From Geomonas paludis (GTDB lineage Bacteria > Desulfobacterota > Desulfuromonadia > Geobacterales > Geobacteraceae), in contig NZ_BLXY01000012.1 of assembly GCF_014193585.1 (NCBI RefSeq), forward strand, positions 1-64,000: a stretch of DNA of 64,000 nucleotides, read 5' to 3'. A program made the translations under genes and the position numbers. The stretch's first letter is position 1, and every line of letters begins with the position of its first letter. Positions 2,721 through 51,660 of the stretch are shown here, one piece after another. The notes beneath the pieces were generated by a model, which had not been told where the DNA came from, did no database searches, and was given only the letters and a program-made list of their open reading frames with translations.

Positions 2721-3395
2721 ATGAAAAGTGTCAGAGCAAATTTCCTCACAGTCATGACCATTATCGCCACCGCGCTTTTAGCAGCGTCTCCGCTGACTGC
2801 TACTGCCGCAGAATCCGGCGCCGCAGGCAAGGCCGCCCATAAAACAGCTGCACCTGAGCAGGCGGAACGGATGGAACTGAAGATAGGCTGGGTGACCATC
2901 GCCAACGACGGCTCCCTGCACGTCGACTTCACCGTTAAAGACGGCAGCGGCAAGGCGGTCACGGGACTGACCCGTGACGACATCGCCGCGGTTTCCTTCG
3001 GGCGGCTTGGTTACGAGGACGAGGTGGGGCTGAGGACGGTAGTCGGCCAACCGAACAAGATCTGGCTGAGCTACCTGGAGAAGCGCCGCGAGGGGCAGGG
3101 CGTCGAGCGGAACCGGGGCGTGGTCGCCCTTGGCGCCAAGGACCGCCTCACCGAGGAAGGGGACGGCAGCTACAGCCTCGACGTCAAAAGGCCGGCGCGG
3201 CTGCTGACCAAGTTCAGCTATGAGCCCACGGCCGAAACCGGCGTGATGCTGAGGATAACGAGAGTTGGCGGCGCAGAAGGGCGGGACTCGTATTTCTGGC
3301 GCCCGGCGCTGGCGAAGAGGATTGAAGTTCCCAAGATACTGGCCCGCGCAGAAGGCAGCCGTCCCCTGAGCACCAAGCCGCGCGCGTGGAACTAA
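2721..3395 (+). CDS. Secreted heme-less protein resembling the OmcA/MtrC N-terminal domain
   Basis: A 224-residue protein with a Sec signal peptide (a hydrophobic stretch around residues 9-29 ending TATAAE). The mature part contains VDFTVKDGSGKAVTGLT, LSYLEKR and EEGDGSYSL followed by FSYEPTAETG. Similar blocks occur in the N-terminal beta-sandwich domain of OmcA/MtrC-family decaheme cytochromes. There is no CXXCH motif, so it binds no c-type heme, and the protein stops about where the heme domain would begin. GGAGG lies 5 nt upstream of the ATG. It may be a truncated cytochrome or a standalone accessory domain. The resemblance is from memory of the family and needs a profile search. Confidence 0.6.
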   Translation: MKSVRANFLTVMTIIATALLAASPLTATAAESGAAGKAAHKTAAPEQAERMELKIGWVTIANDGSLHVDFTVKDGSGKAVTGLTRDDIAAVSFGRLGYEDEVGLRTVVGQPNKIWLSYLEKRREGQGVERNRGVVALGAKDRLTEEGDGSYSLDVKRPARLLTKFSYEPTAETGVMLRITRVGGAEGRDSYFWRPALAKRIEVPKILARAEGSRPLSTKPRAWN

Positions 3396-3424
3396 AGGGC
3401 TTGCGGGAGGGGGTGAGGTAGAAA

Positions 3425-3454
3425 GGGGACAGGCACCTTACGGAGCCAGTCCCC
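3425..3454. repeat. REP-like palindrome (family 1) covering a stop codon
   Basis: GGGGACAGGCACC pairs with GGAGCCAGTCCCC around a short loop. The stop codon and last codons of the neighbouring radical SAM gene lie inside this palindrome, so the repeat has shaped the C-terminus of that protein. Confidence 0.7.
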
Positions 3455-4355
3455 GCCGCGCGCCCTGCCTGGTGTTTCTCCGCTCCAGTTCGTGATCGAT
3501 ACAGTTCAGCACCTCGAACTTGGCGAGCGACCAAAGCGGCGCGATCAGATCCTTCCTGTTGCCGTCACCGGTCAGCCGCTGCACCACGATGTTGGGGTCG
3601 AGCCGCTCCAGAAAGTCGCAGACCAGCCCCACGTAGCTGTCCCGGTCCAGAAGCGGCACCTCTCCGGCCTGGTACAACTCGGCCAACCGGGTGCCGCGCA
3701 TCACGTGCAGGAGATGAACCTTGACGCCGTCCACGCCGGCCCGGTTGAGAAACTCCGCACCGGAGAGCATCTCCTCGCGGCTCTCCCCCGGCAGCCCCAG
3801 GATGATGTGGGCGCAGACCCGAATGCCGCGCTTTTGACACTCCCTGACGGCGGCGCTGAAAGAGGCGAGGTCGTGGCCGCGGTTGATGGCGGAGAGGGTG
3901 CGGTCCAGCGGCGACTGCAGGCCCAGTTCCAGCCAGAAGTAGCAGCGCCGGGCGTACTCGGCGAGGAGGTCGAGGGTTTCGGTCGGGAGGCAGTCCGGGC
4001 GGGTGCCGACGATGAGGCCCACCACGTCCGGCACCGAAAGCGCCTCGTCGTAGAGCCGGCGCAGCTGTTCCACCGGCGCGTAGGTGTTGGAGTAGGACTG
4101 GAAGTAGGCGATGAAGCGGGCCGCCTTGTACTTCCTGACCATGACCTCCTTGGCGTGCTCCAACTGCTCGGCGACCCCTACCCCCTGCAGGATCCCGTAG
4201 GACCCGGATCCCTTGCCGCCGCAGAAGATGCACCCTTCCGTGCCGACGCTGCCGTCGCGGTTGGGGCAGGTGAATCCCGCGTCCACCGAGAGCCGCTGCA
4301 CCTTGCAGCCGAACACCCTCTTGAGCTCTTCCGAAAATGTGTTGTAACGCAGCAT
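3438..4355 (-). CDS. TIGR01212-family radical SAM protein (YhcC-like)
   Basis: A 305-residue radical SAM protein. The cluster cysteines are in CPNRDGSVGTEGCIFC, the spacing typical of the YhcC/TIGR01212 family and distinct from the classic CxxxCxxC. Further family blocks are YFQSYSNTYAPVE and GTRPDCLPTETLDLL, with a TIM-barrel core ending near residue 250. The E. coli homologue has no firmly established substrate. It is a single gene facing the 2721 gene. The extreme C-terminus (RRGLAP) is encoded by a REP palindrome and so is probably not conserved. Confidence 0.88.
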   Translation of the reverse strand: MLRYNTFSEELKRVFGCKVQRLSVDAGFTCPNRDGSVGTEGCIFCGGKGSGSYGILQGVGVAEQLEHAKEVMVRKYKAARFIAYFQSYSNTYAPVEQLRRLYDEALSVPDVVGLIVGTRPDCLPTETLDLLAEYARRCYFWLELGLQSPLDRTLSAINRGHDLASFSAAVRECQKRGIRVCAHIILGLPGESREEMLSGAEFLNRAGVDGVKVHLLHVMRGTRLAELYQAGEVPLLDRDSYVGLVCDFLERLDPNIVVQRLTGDGNRKDLIAPLWSLAKFEVLNCIDHELERRNTRQGARRGLAP

Positions 4356-35777: not shown

Positions 35778-37220
<1,443 letters not shown>

Positions 37221-37745: not shown

Positions 37746-40028
37746 TCACTCATCATCTTCCTCGCGCGCGCGGATTGTGCGTCCTTTCAACCCGTGCTTG
37801 GCCAAAAGACGATAAAAAGTCCTTCTGGGGATGTTGGCGAGTTGTGCCGCTTTTGACACATTGCCCCCGGCGTCGGCCAGGTAGCGCTGGATCAGCTTCT
37901 TCTCGACCCGCAGTACGTGCGGCTCGCGCTCCTTTTTGAACGAGCGCAGGTCGATGACGTCCTCCCCCTCGTCGGCATAGCTTTCCGCGAAGGCCAGCGG
38001 CAGGTTGCCCAGCTTGATGATGTCGTCGTGGGTGAGCACCGCGGCGCGCTCGATGACGTTCTGCATCTCCCTGATGTTGCCCGGCCAGGGGTACTTGACC
38101 ATGGCGTTGATGGCGCGCTCCTCGATGCCCACGATGTGCTTGTTCAGCTTGTTGCGCGCCTTCTCCAGGAAGTAGTGCGCGAGCTGCGGGATCGACTCCA
38201 CCCGCTCCCTAAGCGGCGGCATGGTGATGGAAAAGACGTTGAGGCGGTAGTAGAGGTCCTCGCGGAACCAGCCGTCGCGCACGCCGTCCTCCAGCGACTT
38301 GTTGGTGGCCGCGATGAGACGGACGTCGACGCGGCGCGCCACGGTGCCGCCGACCGGCCTCACCTCGCCCAGGTCGAGTACGCGCAGAAGCTCCGCCTGC
38401 AGCTTCGGGGTGATATCGCCGATCTCGTCCAGGAAGATGGTGCCGCCGTCGGCCGCCTCGAAAAGACCCTTCTTCTCGGTGATGGCGCCGGTGAAGGAGC
38501 CCTTCTTGTGGCCGAACAGTTCGCTCTCCAGCAGCGAGTCCGTGATGGTGGTGCAGTTCACCGTTACCAGCGGCTTGTCGTTTCGCTTGCTGTAGCGGTG
38601 GATGGCGCGCGCCGCCAGCTCCTTGCCGGTACCCGACTCGCCGCGGATCAGCACCGTGGTCGGCGTCGGCCCGACCTGCTTGATCTGGTCCAGGGCCTCC
38701 AGCGTATTGCCGTCGCTCCCCACTATGAACTCGTCGCCGTACTCGCGGTCCAACTCCCTCTTGGCCAGCTCGTACTTCTGGATCAGGCGCCCGCGCTCCT
38801 CTTCCAGTTGCTGCAGGTTGTGCGGCAGGCACATCTCCAGGTCGGCAAGCCCCTGGAAGACGGCGACCGCGTACTCCCGGCAGGTGCGGTAGCCGCAGGT
38901 GCGGCAGTTGAGTTCGTCCTTCTGGGTGAACTTGTTGGTCGCCTGGAGGATCTTCTTGACGTCGCCCCCCTTGGGCGTCGGGAGCTTCGCGTACTTGTCC
39001 GAGAAGGTGCGCGAAAGGTTGATGTCCCAATCCTTCTGGTAGTGCGGCGCCACGCGGTACGGGGTCTCGCCGCGGAAGTGGTTGATCACCATGTTGCGCC
39101 GGGAGAACTCGGTCAGTTCCTTGTTGCGCCCCGGGCCGCCGATGCAGCCGTCGTAGCAGAAACGCAGATCCACCAGCTTCGGACTGATGCGCCCGGCGGC
39201 GAGGTCCTTGATGATCCCCATCACGTTCACTTCGCCCTCGGCGGTGACGATCTCGGTATCGAGCGGGTCGGGGTTGATGCCGAAGGCCTGGAAGGAGCCC
39301 TGGGAGAGCGAGAAGACCCGCCCCATGTGCGGCGCCCTGCCGTCGAACGGCTCCTCCTGCAGGGAGGAGAGGTCGATGCCGCGCTCCTTGAAGATCGATT
39401 CCAGTTCCCGGTAGGTCAGCAGCACGTCCACCGCCCCCTTGGTCTGTTCCGCCTGCACCTCGAACTTGCCGGCGATGCAGGAGCTGATGTAGATCACCTT
39501 GACCTGCTCTCCCAGCACCTGCTTCAGGTAACGCCCCATGGCGACCATGTGGGTTACCACCCCGACCAGGTTCTCGATCAGCTGCGGGTAGTGTCGCTCC
39601 ACCAGGTCAACCACGGCCGGGCAGTGGGAAGAGATGAGCGGCAAATCCGCCTTGTCGATGGCGTTTCTGTACTCGCCGGCGATCAGCTCCACGCCGCGGG
39701 CCCCTTCGTGCACCTCGGCGAAACCGAGCTGGCGCAGGCCTGCGGAGAGCTGGCCGGGAGAGCAGTTGTGGAAGAAGGCGGGGAAGGAGCAGCCCAGGAC
39801 GGCGACGACCGGGTCACCGGAGGTAAGAAGCGCCTCGGTCACCACCACGTTGTCCGCGATGACCTTGGCGTGCTGGGGGCAGTTGCTCAGGCAGTTGCCG
39901 CAGCCGATGCAGCGCTCGAAGATGATCTCGGTGTAGCTCTTCTCCACCTTGATCGCCTTGACCGGGCAGCTGCGCACGCAGGAGTAGCATTTTCGGCATT
40001 GGTCGGTAATGGTTACAATAGGATACAT
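37746..40028 (-). CDS. Sigma-54 activator with Fe-hydrogenase-like sensor domain
   Basis: A 760-residue one-protein sensor-regulator. Residues ~1-55 hold two [4Fe-4S] ferredoxin motifs (CRKCYSCVRSCPVKA; CIGCGNCLSNCPQ). Residues ~70-380 resemble the large subunit of Fe-only hydrogenase: SSHCPAVVDL for L1, YISSCIAGKFE for L2, FCYDGCIGGPG for L3. Three positions match H-cluster ligands, but the first L1 cysteine is His. A second Fe-S motif (CRTCGYRTCREYAVAVFQG, ~400) precedes a sigma-54 AAA+ domain (GESGTGKE, ESELFGHKKGSFTGA, GGTIFLDEI, PWPGNIREMQNV) and a Fis helix-turn-helix. It probably converts a redox or H2 signal into transcription from sigma-54 promoters. The start at 40028 follows GAGGA. 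Confidence 0.88.
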   Translation of the reverse strand: MYPIVTITDQCRKCYSCVRSCPVKAIKVEKSYTEIIFERCIGCGNCLSNCPQHAKVIADNVVVTEALLTSGDPVVAVLGCSFPAFFHNCSPGQLSAGLRQLGFAEVHEGARGVELIAGEYRNAIDKADLPLISSHCPAVVDLVERHYPQLIENLVGVVTHMVAMGRYLKQVLGEQVKVIYISSCIAGKFEVQAEQTKGAVDVLLTYRELESIFKERGIDLSSLQEEPFDGRAPHMGRVFSLSQGSFQAFGINPDPLDTEIVTAEGEVNVMGIIKDLAAGRISPKLVDLRFCYDGCIGGPGRNKELTEFSRRNMVINHFRGETPYRVAPHYQKDWDINLSRTFSDKYAKLPTPKGGDVKKILQATNKFTQKDELNCRTCGYRTCREYAVAVFQGLADLEMCLPHNLQQLEEERGRLIQKYELAKRELDREYGDEFIVGSDGNTLEALDQIKQVGPTPTTVLIRGESGTGKELAARAIHRYSKRNDKPLVTVNCTTITDSLLESELFGHKKGSFTGAITEKKGLFEAADGGTIFLDEIGDITPKLQAELLRVLDLGEVRPVGGTVARRVDVRLIAATNKSLEDGVRDGWFREDLYYRLNVFSITMPPLRERVESIPQLAHYFLEKARNKLNKHIVGIEERAINAMVKYPWPGNIREMQNVIERAAVLTHDDIIKLGNLPLAFAESYADEGEDVIDLRSFKKEREPHVLRVEKKLIQRYLADAGGNVSKAAQLANIPRRTFYRLLAKHGLKGRTIRAREEDDE

Positions 40029-40072: not shown

Positions 40073-40115
40073 ATTGTATAGGAATCGGGAAAAGTGTGCA
40101 ACAGTTGGCACACTT
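40073..40115 (-). promoter_or_regulatory. Sigma-70 promoter of the regulator with overlapping palindrome
   Basis: On the minus strand TTGCAC (40101-40096) and TACAAT (40078-40073) are 17 nt apart. The perfect palindrome AAGTGTGC-N8-GCACACTT (40092-40115) covers the -35 box, which predicts negative autoregulation. The start codon at 40028 is 45 nt from the -10 box. Confidence 0.7.
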
Positions 40116-40131: not shown

Positions 40132-40210
40132 AAAAAAAAACCCTAGCGACTAGGAGGGCAAGTCGGCTAGGGGAAGGAGGATCCTACGATCCTCCGCAAC
40201 TCTTATCTAT
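40132..40210 (-). ncRNA. Predicted small RNA, about 79 nt, two hairpins and a U-tract
   Basis: Read on the minus strand from about 40210. Hairpin 1 is GGAGGATC/GATCCTCC with loop GTAG (40176-40195). Hairpin 2 is CCCTAG-C-CGACT with AGTCG-CTAGGG and the C-rich loop TGCCCTCCT (40141-40172), followed by nine U residues. The loop could pair with Shine-Dalgarno sequences (GGAGG). A strong sigma-70 promoter precedes it. It may be an independent small RNA or a leader attenuator of the regulator; the regulator has its own promoter downstream, which favours the first. Confidence 0.65.
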
Positions 40211-40216
40211 GAACAC

Positions 40217-40245
40217 ATTATACTGAGGCGCTAAAAAGACTGCAA
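40217..40245 (-). promoter_or_regulatory. Strong sigma-70 promoter of the predicted small RNA
   Basis: Minus strand TTGCAG (40245-40240), 17-nt spacer, consensus TATAAT (40222-40217). Predicted start near 40210, right at the 5' end of the hairpins. Confidence 0.75.
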
Positions 40246-40400: not shown

Positions 40401-41843
40401 ATGACAACCACGGCACGCTTTCATTTCTCACTACGGCTCATGGCGGTACTCGCCCTGGTCCTGCTGCCGCTGCAGCTCCTGGCGGCGACTCCTCTCCCCA
40501 AACTGGCCGCCCCGCCCGAAGGGGAGCGCTGGTTCAGCATCATCATGGGCGACGAGCAGGTCGGCTTCGGCCAGACGACCGTCACCCGCACTGCCAACGG
40601 CTACCAGATTTCCTCGCGCGGCAGCGTCAAGATGAAGGTGATGGGGTTCTCGCGTGAGGCCAGTTCCACGGAATCGTACCAGGTGGCTCCCGACCTCACC
40701 CTGCGCTCGTTCCAGGTCCAAAACCGCATCGACGGCAGCCCCGTCGACATCGAGGGCGCGGTGACCCCGAAGGGAATCACGGTGCACACCCGTTCCGCCA
40801 ACGGCAACAAGGAGCGGCTCCTGAAGGTGAAGGGTGCGGTGTACCCGCCCCATGCCCTGAACCTGTACCCGCTCATGCAGGGGGCCGTGCCGGGCAAGAC
40901 CTACAAGATCCAGTACCTCGATCCGGAAGCGGTGAAGGTGAAGCAGGCGAAGGTCGAGGTAGTAGGCCCGGAAACGCTGGACGGCAAGCAGGTGGTGCAC
41001 CTGAAGAACGACCTCTACACCATGGTGGACAACGACATCTGGGTCGATCTCTCTGGCAATACCTTGAAGGAATCGGTGCGGGACGGGCTGGTGGTCACGA
41101 TGGCGCGGGACGAGGCGACCGCGAGGGCCGAGCTTGCGGAAGCGGCCATGGAGAAGAAAGATCTCGTCTACGACTTCAGCATGATCCGGGTGACGCCGCC
41201 CCTGGAGCACCCCGAGCGGCTGCAGAAACTGGTAGTGCAGATAACCGGGATACCGGCGCAGCAGCGCCTGCTGCAGGGGACGTGGCAGAGTGCTGAGCGC
41301 CAGGCTGACGGCAGCGTGATCTTCATCCTCCCCAACCCCGGCCTCCCCGCGGAAGAAGCGCCCACCCAGGCGGACCTGCAGCCCGGCGAGCGCACCCCCA
41401 GCGACAACCCCGAGATCATTGCCCGCATGAGGGCCATCGTGGGCGACGAAAAGGTTCCAGCCCAAAAGGTCGCCCGGCTGACGGCGTGGGTTGCCACGCA
41501 GATCAAGGCCGACGTGATCGATTCCCAGTCGCCGCTAGAGACGCTGCAGAAAGGGCGCGGCAACTGCCAAAGCCACGCGCGGCTCTACGTCTCGCTGGCG
41601 CGGGCCGCCGGCATCCCGACCCGCTTCGTGTCCGGGCTCGTGTACCAGGGCGACGGGTTCCTGTACCACAGTTGGGCGGAAAGTTACCTGGAAGGGAGGT
41701 GGGTCTCGGTCGATCCCACCTTCAACCAGGTTCCCGCCGATGTCACCCACATCAAGCTGGTCGAAGGAGAGTCGCTGGACGAGATGGGGAGCATCGCCGG
41801 CATGATCGGGCGTGCGCGGGCCAAGGTGCTCGAGAAGCGCTAG
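40401..41843 (+). CDS. Secreted transglutaminase-like cysteine protease domain protein
   Basis: A 480-residue protein with a signal peptide (hydrophobic residues ~9-29, cleavage near LLAAT). The long N-terminal part is beta-rich. The C-terminal transglutaminase-like core has Cys389 in GRGNCQSHARL, then His in YHSWAESYL and Asp in SVDPTFNQV, a complete triad. It is likely periplasmic, acting as a protease or cross-linker on unknown targets. A strong AAGGAGG precedes the ATG. It is monocistronic and ends before a REP block and a terminator. Confidence 0.85.
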   Translation: MTTTARFHFSLRLMAVLALVLLPLQLLAATPLPKLAAPPEGERWFSIIMGDEQVGFGQTTVTRTANGYQISSRGSVKMKVMGFSREASSTESYQVAPDLTLRSFQVQNRIDGSPVDIEGAVTPKGITVHTRSANGNKERLLKVKGAVYPPHALNLYPLMQGAVPGKTYKIQYLDPEAVKVKQAKVEVVGPETLDGKQVVHLKNDLYTMVDNDIWVDLSGNTLKESVRDGLVVTMARDEATARAELAEAAMEKKDLVYDFSMIRVTPPLEHPERLQKLVVQITGIPAQQRLLQGTWQSAERQADGSVIFILPNPGLPAEEAPTQADLQPGERTPSDNPEIIARMRAIVGDEKVPAQKVARLTAWVATQIKADVIDSQSPLETLQKGRGNCQSHARLYVSLARAAGIPTRFVSGLVYQGDGFLYHSWAESYLEGRWVSVDPTFNQVPADVTHIKLVEGESLDEMGSIAGMIGRARAKVLEKR

Positions 41844-51421: not shown

Positions 51422-51482
51422 TCAAAAACGCACTGCAGGTGCGGTTCCGGCTTTAGCCCCTCTGCCACGGAGGTTGCAACAA

Positions 51483-51655
51483 GCTTCTCATCCTGGCAGG
51501 TTTCCTGACTCACGGGTCGTCTTACTCGCCGCGCCTTCCCGATGCGATCAGTGGCGTTGTTGCGGCTTTCATCTCCGTTCACAGTTGCGGGACAGCGAGG
51601 GATTCACACCCTCTTCCCTTTTAACCCCTCTCGGGGCACCAAGACGAACGTCTAT
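51483..51655 (-). promoter_or_regulatory. Cobalamin riboswitch
   Basis: The minus strand has the B12-aptamer landmarks in order: TTGGTGCCC, AAAAGGGAAGAGGGTGTGAA, CTGTCCCGCAACTGTGAACG (the B12 box region), GCCACTG, and GGAAACCTGCC near the 3' end. It controls cobU and the downstream operon. Binding of cobalamin should favour the terminator just before cobU. Confidence 0.93.
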
Positions 51656-51660
51656 GTATT

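Follow-up and report, generated by a model that had tools for sequence, protein, structure and literature searches.

What kind of gene product is encoded just upstream of a sigma-54-dependent regulator in Geomonas paludis, a leader that controls that regulator in cis or a small RNA (sRNA) that acts on mRNAs from other loci? Geobacter and its relatives are model metal-respiring bacteria, and most genomes of the order carry this structured RNA, which is catalogued as a probable cis-regulatory leader and appears to be a trans-acting sRNA. The element lies in the window (the whole stretch of 64,000 nucleotides that was analysed), between a divergent transglutaminase-domain gene (40401–41843, plus strand) and the regulator gene. 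Structure, covariation, an invariant loop, a conserved promoter and differing neighbours were computed for it and are taken up in turn below. The features discussed are the following.

40240–40245, minus strand: TTGCAG, the −35 hexamer of the predicted sRNA promoter, which the Rfam model does not cover
40217–40222, minus strand: −10 hexamer TATAAT, 17-nt spacer from the −35, on Rfam model positions 3–8
40132–40210, minus strand: predicted 79-nt small RNA, 5′ end placed from the −10, likely +1 the A at 40210
40134–40224, minus strand: match to Rfam RF01733 (atoC RNA), 73.1 bits, cut-off 50, model positions 1–93
40176–40195, minus strand: hairpin 1, GGAGGAUC-GUAG-GAUCCUCC, 8 pairs, stem variable yet covarying
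40141–40172, minus strand: hairpin 2, the terminator stem, with covarying pairs
40152–40160, minus strand: 9-nt terminator loop UGCCCUCCU, proposed anti-Shine-Dalgarno seed, containing CCCUCCU
40132–40140, minus strand: U9 terminator tail, five T columns invariant in 65/65 aligned sequences
40073–40101, minus strand: promoter-like site of the regulator, TTGCAC-17-TACAAT (TGCACA-16-TACAAT in a simple scan), downstream of the sRNA terminator
37746–40028, minus strand: regulator gene (Pfam: ferredoxin, Fe-hydrogenase C-terminal, sigma-54 activator, HTH_8)
35778–37220, plus strand: cysS, by likeness to the scanned protein of locus L114, just beyond the regulator

A catalogued RNA with a predicted promoter and terminator of its own

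This locus very likely encodes an sRNA some 79 nt long. A preliminary description had proposed a TATAAT promoter with 17-nt spacing, two hairpins, a U9 tail and a 79-nt transcript, all of which are present on the minus strand, and had placed the end of the RNA before the regulator's own promoter; the promoter-like site of the regulator (40101–40073) does lie beyond the terminator. The same description regarded the element as a new small RNA with an anti-Shine-Dalgarno loop. The stand-alone anti-Shine-Dalgarno sRNA is well supported by comparison, but the element is not new, as it is already catalogued: RF01733, "atoC RNA" (Rfam type Cis-reg), covers it at full length (E = 1.8e-11 over the window). 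Table 1 of the 2010 paper PMC2864571 enters atoC as "RNA? y, cis-reg? y, switch? ?" for delta-proteobacteria, and the same paper states that motifs commonly found upstream of coding regions were usually presumed to be cis-regulatory elements within 5′ UTRs. Searches of the open literature by the phrase "atoC RNA", by RF01733 and by title found no experimental study of atoC RNA.

The RF01733 consensus UAuAcU at model positions 3–8 aligns to the −10 hexamer of the window. Judged from this alignment, the family model appears to contain the −10 of the RNA's own promoter, and the 5′ part of the model may lie outside the transcript; since the −10 lies inside the model, the transcript would begin at about model position 15. 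The promoter-free model R1 matches 40132–40210 at 66.5 bits. The 79-nt RNA folds at −31.5 kcal/mol, compared with −19.55 (sd 2.93) for shuffled sequences (z = −4.08), and 0/200 shuffles fold as well. A simple scan counts against the reading: it did not list the sRNA promoter, whose −35 hexamer is identical to the consensus TTGACA at only 3/6 positions, and of the terminator hairpin it listed only a smaller form (1 found vs 1.5 expected by chance).

Conservation of the promoter across the order

We scanned the sequence upstream of each locus for promoters, taking the best site per locus and using shuffled sequences as the control. A candidate was obtained in 127 of the 128 order loci having 60 upstream bases, with a mean best score of 8.96 vs 6.84 in dinucleotide shuffles (127 loci), and the score was at least 9 in 68.5% of the 127 loci vs 5.7% of the shuffles. 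The chosen −10 stood at a single fixed offset in 93/127 loci. Scores below 8 were found in 18/127 loci, including five of the nine loci of genus g27. A narrower search, run with no shuffled control, returned a candidate in 151/154 loci, with TTG at the −35 in 132/151 and lacking in 19/151 (by order family, 45/48, 3/3, 10/13 and 52/62; outside the order, 22/25); here the hexamers served as anchors, and their conservation is therefore partly by construction. The spacer between the hexamers is almost unconserved, and two conserved blocks around a free spacer resemble a promoter rather than an RNA. The element combines a promoter of its own with an intrinsic terminator, as would be expected of a trans-acting base-pairing sRNA, in both cases as read from sequence.

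Covarying stems and an invariant loop

For the analysis of covariation, 129 order loci were thinned to 65 sequences with less than 90% identity; L113, L124–L127 and L129 had been left out before alignment, since they were truncated, scored under or close to the cut-off, or represented second copies. The preliminary description had named loss of the stems and C-rich loop in related genomes as evidence against it, and both turned out to be conserved: the stems covary, and CCCUCCU is found in 65/65 aligned sequences, as well as in 128/129 order loci and in 25/25 loci read outside the order, the latter (from 22 genomes) being the best-scoring among those listed and not a random sample. Over both helices, 97.5% of the cells in the 65 sequences are paired, and 141 cells are changed on both sides. 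As controls, 0/500 shuffles reached any of five covariation measures, and sliding the partners cut pairing to 34.5–47.7%.

Because the search models include the loop, the invariance of CCCUCCU is partly favoured by detection. However, 90/129 order matches score at least 64 bits and could therefore lose the seven loop positions (an estimated 14 bits at most) and still pass the cut-off of 50, and the lone order match without CCCUCCU (the second copy in genome G064, 52 bits) was nevertheless detected. The flanks of the loop vary around the invariant core, the loop of hairpin 1 is variable in length among the aligned sequences, and a UUGCG ahead of hairpin 1 is nearly invariant. Two second copies differ in character: L124 (G064) has lost CCCUCCU and kept the stems, while L127 (G018) has kept CCCUCCU and has a longer hairpin 1.

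Distribution within the class Desulfuromonadia

The covariance search across relatives that had been suggested placed RF01733 above the cut-off in 124/141 order genomes, and in 126 at E ≤ 0.001. There is a single match in the genome of G. paludis, as in 123 of the 126 matching order genomes; two matches were found in G018, G064 and G078, those of G078 at contig ends. RF01733 had no match in 14 control genomes. Among 395 genomes drawn from the phylum, 11 had a match at E ≤ 0.001, eight of them above the cut-off, and all 11 are the genome itself or members of the same family, the same order or the same class.

The transcript-only model R1, built from the 65 sequences without the promoter and with E-values that are rough, matched 216/277 class genomes and 69/82 genera at E ≤ 0.001. 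Outside the order this leaves, by subtraction, 90/136 genomes with a match; within it, the same 15 genomes are without a match under RF01733 and under the transcript-only model, and 12 genomes have two or three matches. A search pattern for the loop plus terminator found, among the matches listed, Geomonas, Geobacter, Geotalea, Citrifermentans and Oryzomonas, and also Pelotalea, Desulfuromonas, Geothermobacter and Geoalkalibacter. Some genomes have multiple matches to the transcript-only model, up to six in G643 and three in G008.

Proposed pairing of the terminator loop with Shine-Dalgarno leaders

As the most likely mechanism, to which we assign a probability of about 0.68, the element would be an independent sRNA gene that acts on leaders of other loci. 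A sigma-70-type promoter would start a transcript of about 79 nt, which would stop at its own intrinsic terminator; CCCUCCU in the terminator loop would pair with the AGGAGGG-type leaders of mRNAs encoded elsewhere, and pairing would block ribosome binding, thereby causing repression in trans, with Hfq probably helping through the U-rich linker and the U tail. Transcription, binding by Hfq, pairing, repression and targets are all inferred here; repression of AGGAGGG-leader mRNAs in trans is suggested by these considerations taken together: CCCUCCU is complementary to AGGAGGG, the layout resembles that of RepG, the logic resembles that of NfeR1, and Hfq is encoded in the genome (PF17209, 81.9 bits). 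A U-rich linker followed by a U tail would suit Hfq. The CCUCC within CCCUCCU is the core of the anti-Shine-Dalgarno sequence of the ribosome; a pattern for the 16S 3′ end had 0 matches in the draft genome, so the comparison is with that sequence as generally known.

Two known systems share parts of this design. The NfeR1/alpha-r14 ("cuckoo") sRNAs of rhizobia likewise carry an ultraconserved, unpaired anti-Shine-Dalgarno motif on sequence-variable stems, and NfeR1 is described as covering the ribosome binding site, leading to repression (PMC10746234). However, alpha-r14 RNAs are described there as three hairpins each with CCUCCUCCC, whereas the present RNA has two hairpins and one CCCUCCU loop, in the terminator; it does not show the alpha-r14 architecture, and no homology is claimed. 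RepG of Helicobacter pylori likewise uses a C/U-rich terminator loop as its pairing site and lies beside a regulator gene; according to PMC8295292 its partner is a G-repeat of the tlpB leader, and the likeness to the RNA considered here is one of layout only.

The sequence AGGAGGG-N(3–9)-ATG occurs at 144 sites in the genome itself, and the backward control has 65, so the seed alone is not specific; for AGGAGGA the count is higher still (264 vs 70). The longer pattern AGGAGGGCA-N(1–9)-ATG has five forward and three reverse sites in the genome, the backward control giving 0 and 1, and is matched in 19/19 genomes of the genus, matches that mostly reflect ordinary Shine-Dalgarno sites. When ORFs were read at three of the 11 AGGAGGGCA stretches, one site lay immediately 5′ of a gene start, the product of which we take to resemble the GTPase Era, and the other two could not be tied to one. 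From these seed and site searches of the genome and the genus, no specific mRNA target emerged.

A broader version of the same idea is possible though doubtful: that most of the class Desulfuromonadia shares this RNA as a core sRNA, and that its fixed anti-Shine-Dalgarno core in the terminator loop would restrain translation initiation globally, across the whole AGGAGGG leader class, instead of regulating a few genes.

It is unlikely that the stand-alone RNA acts by binding a protein or a second sRNA and not mRNA leaders, with its C-rich loop as a protein site or a sponge. An invariant loop between varying flanks is what would be expected of a protein site, the UUGCG before hairpin 1 is nearly invariant as well, and the missing specific target would be natural on such a reading; against this, CCCUCCU complements a strong Shine-Dalgarno sequence exactly, and seeds of this type are described for other sRNAs (PMC10746234, PMC8295292). 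A CsrA sponge in particular was considered and rejected: on inspection of the alignment by eye, the hairpin loops have no conserved GGA, which such a sponge needs. In G. sulfurreducens, three CsrB-like sRNAs are predicted, antisense to GSU0072 and to GSU2675 and between GSU1100 and phoR, as listed in PMC11934962.

Neighbouring genes and the cis-regulatory label

The Rfam label implies a cis-regulatory leader: the element would belong to the 5′ UTR of the gene that follows and work as an attenuator or riboswitch, with its terminator under the control of a ligand or a protein. The atoC RNA entry and the present element are the same sequence family, with two hairpins and a C-rich loop in the second. 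The arrangement in the window, where the element is co-directional with the regulator, agrees with the label, as does its publication as probably cis-regulatory in the part of PMC2864571 cited above. We determined the next downstream conserved ORF at each locus. ORF clusters were assigned automatically, with one antisense ORF in L003 reassigned by hand. In the 129 order loci, this ORF is the Fe-hydrogenase-like sigma-54 regulator in 46, folK in 54 and a small RHH-like ORF in seven, giving a co-directional ORF in 107/129 loci, where an additional cis effect is thus possible. The remaining loci have a convergent ORF (10; cysS in five, others in five), no conserved ORF (nine) or a contig end (three).

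Several of these observations speak against the leader. Across the family, the RNA does not consistently occupy the 5′ UTR of a co-directional gene, the next gene being convergent in 10/129 order loci and in 22 of the 25 best-scoring loci outside the order (two co-directional, one contig end). The downstream genes, the regulator and folK, are unrelated. The model includes the −10, so that transcription would start inside it, and the regulator has a promoter-like site of its own: among regulator loci with a placed start codon (33/46), a promoter-like site scoring at least 9 was found in 25/33. Antitermination by pairing of the hairpin 1 5′ arm GGAGG with CCUCC of the loop is possible in this genus; by eye, the pairing is not kept in aligned sequences where hairpin 1 has GAGAG, and as an unconserved feature it was set aside.

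Given the neighbourhood, the promoter and the terminator, we reject the cis leader as the main reading and consider it quite improbable. The presumption of PMC2864571 does not fit many RF01733 loci. The entry is typed Cis-reg and its model starts before the likely +1, whereas promoter, terminator and differing neighbours suggest an independent sRNA: promoter, hairpins and terminator are kept while the neighbours differ, often with the RNA facing the 3′ end of the next gene, and the RNA therefore behaves as its own gene. The stand-alone anti-Shine-Dalgarno sRNA fits better than the Cis-reg label, and RF01733 is probably mislabelled in function and ordinary in kind, a base-pairing sRNA. With the label corrected, what is now an orphan motif would become a regulator that can be tested, its seed named and its promoter mapped.

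In 12 order loci a convergent cysS is found within 1.5 kb, and the regulator is present in none of these 12, an absence judged at the level of the locus and not of the whole genome; in the window, cysS comes just after the regulator. The pattern is consistent with the regulator having been lost and the RNA retained; gain elsewhere is also possible.

That the conserved stretch codes for a small peptide is very improbable and was rejected: a closed ORF of at least 15 codons (ATG, GTG or TTG starts) lies inside the element in 40/129 loci, but 89/129 have none, the spacing between UUGCG and the loop is spread over all three frames (69, 39 and 16 of 124 loci counted), and the hairpin-1 loop varies in length on stems that covary.

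Further observations at the loci

At L263, a locus outside the order, the convergent neighbour (3151–3609, minus strand) is an Rrf2-type regulator, the single one scanned; 21 further loci of the set have homologues of it. Together with the ferredoxin/Fe-hydrogenase-like sigma-54 neighbours of Geobacteraceae-type loci, it may hint at redox or Fe-S sensing. A palindrome, AAGTGTGCCAACTGTTGCACACTT (40092–40115, minus strand), overlaps the −35 of the regulator's promoter-like site, and TGTGCCA, one of its arms, occurs in 31/33 regulator loci; the palindrome is a candidate operator, perhaps for autoregulation. Elsewhere in the window, a cobalamin riboswitch (RF00174) lies at 51478–51658 on the minus strand (122.4 bits).
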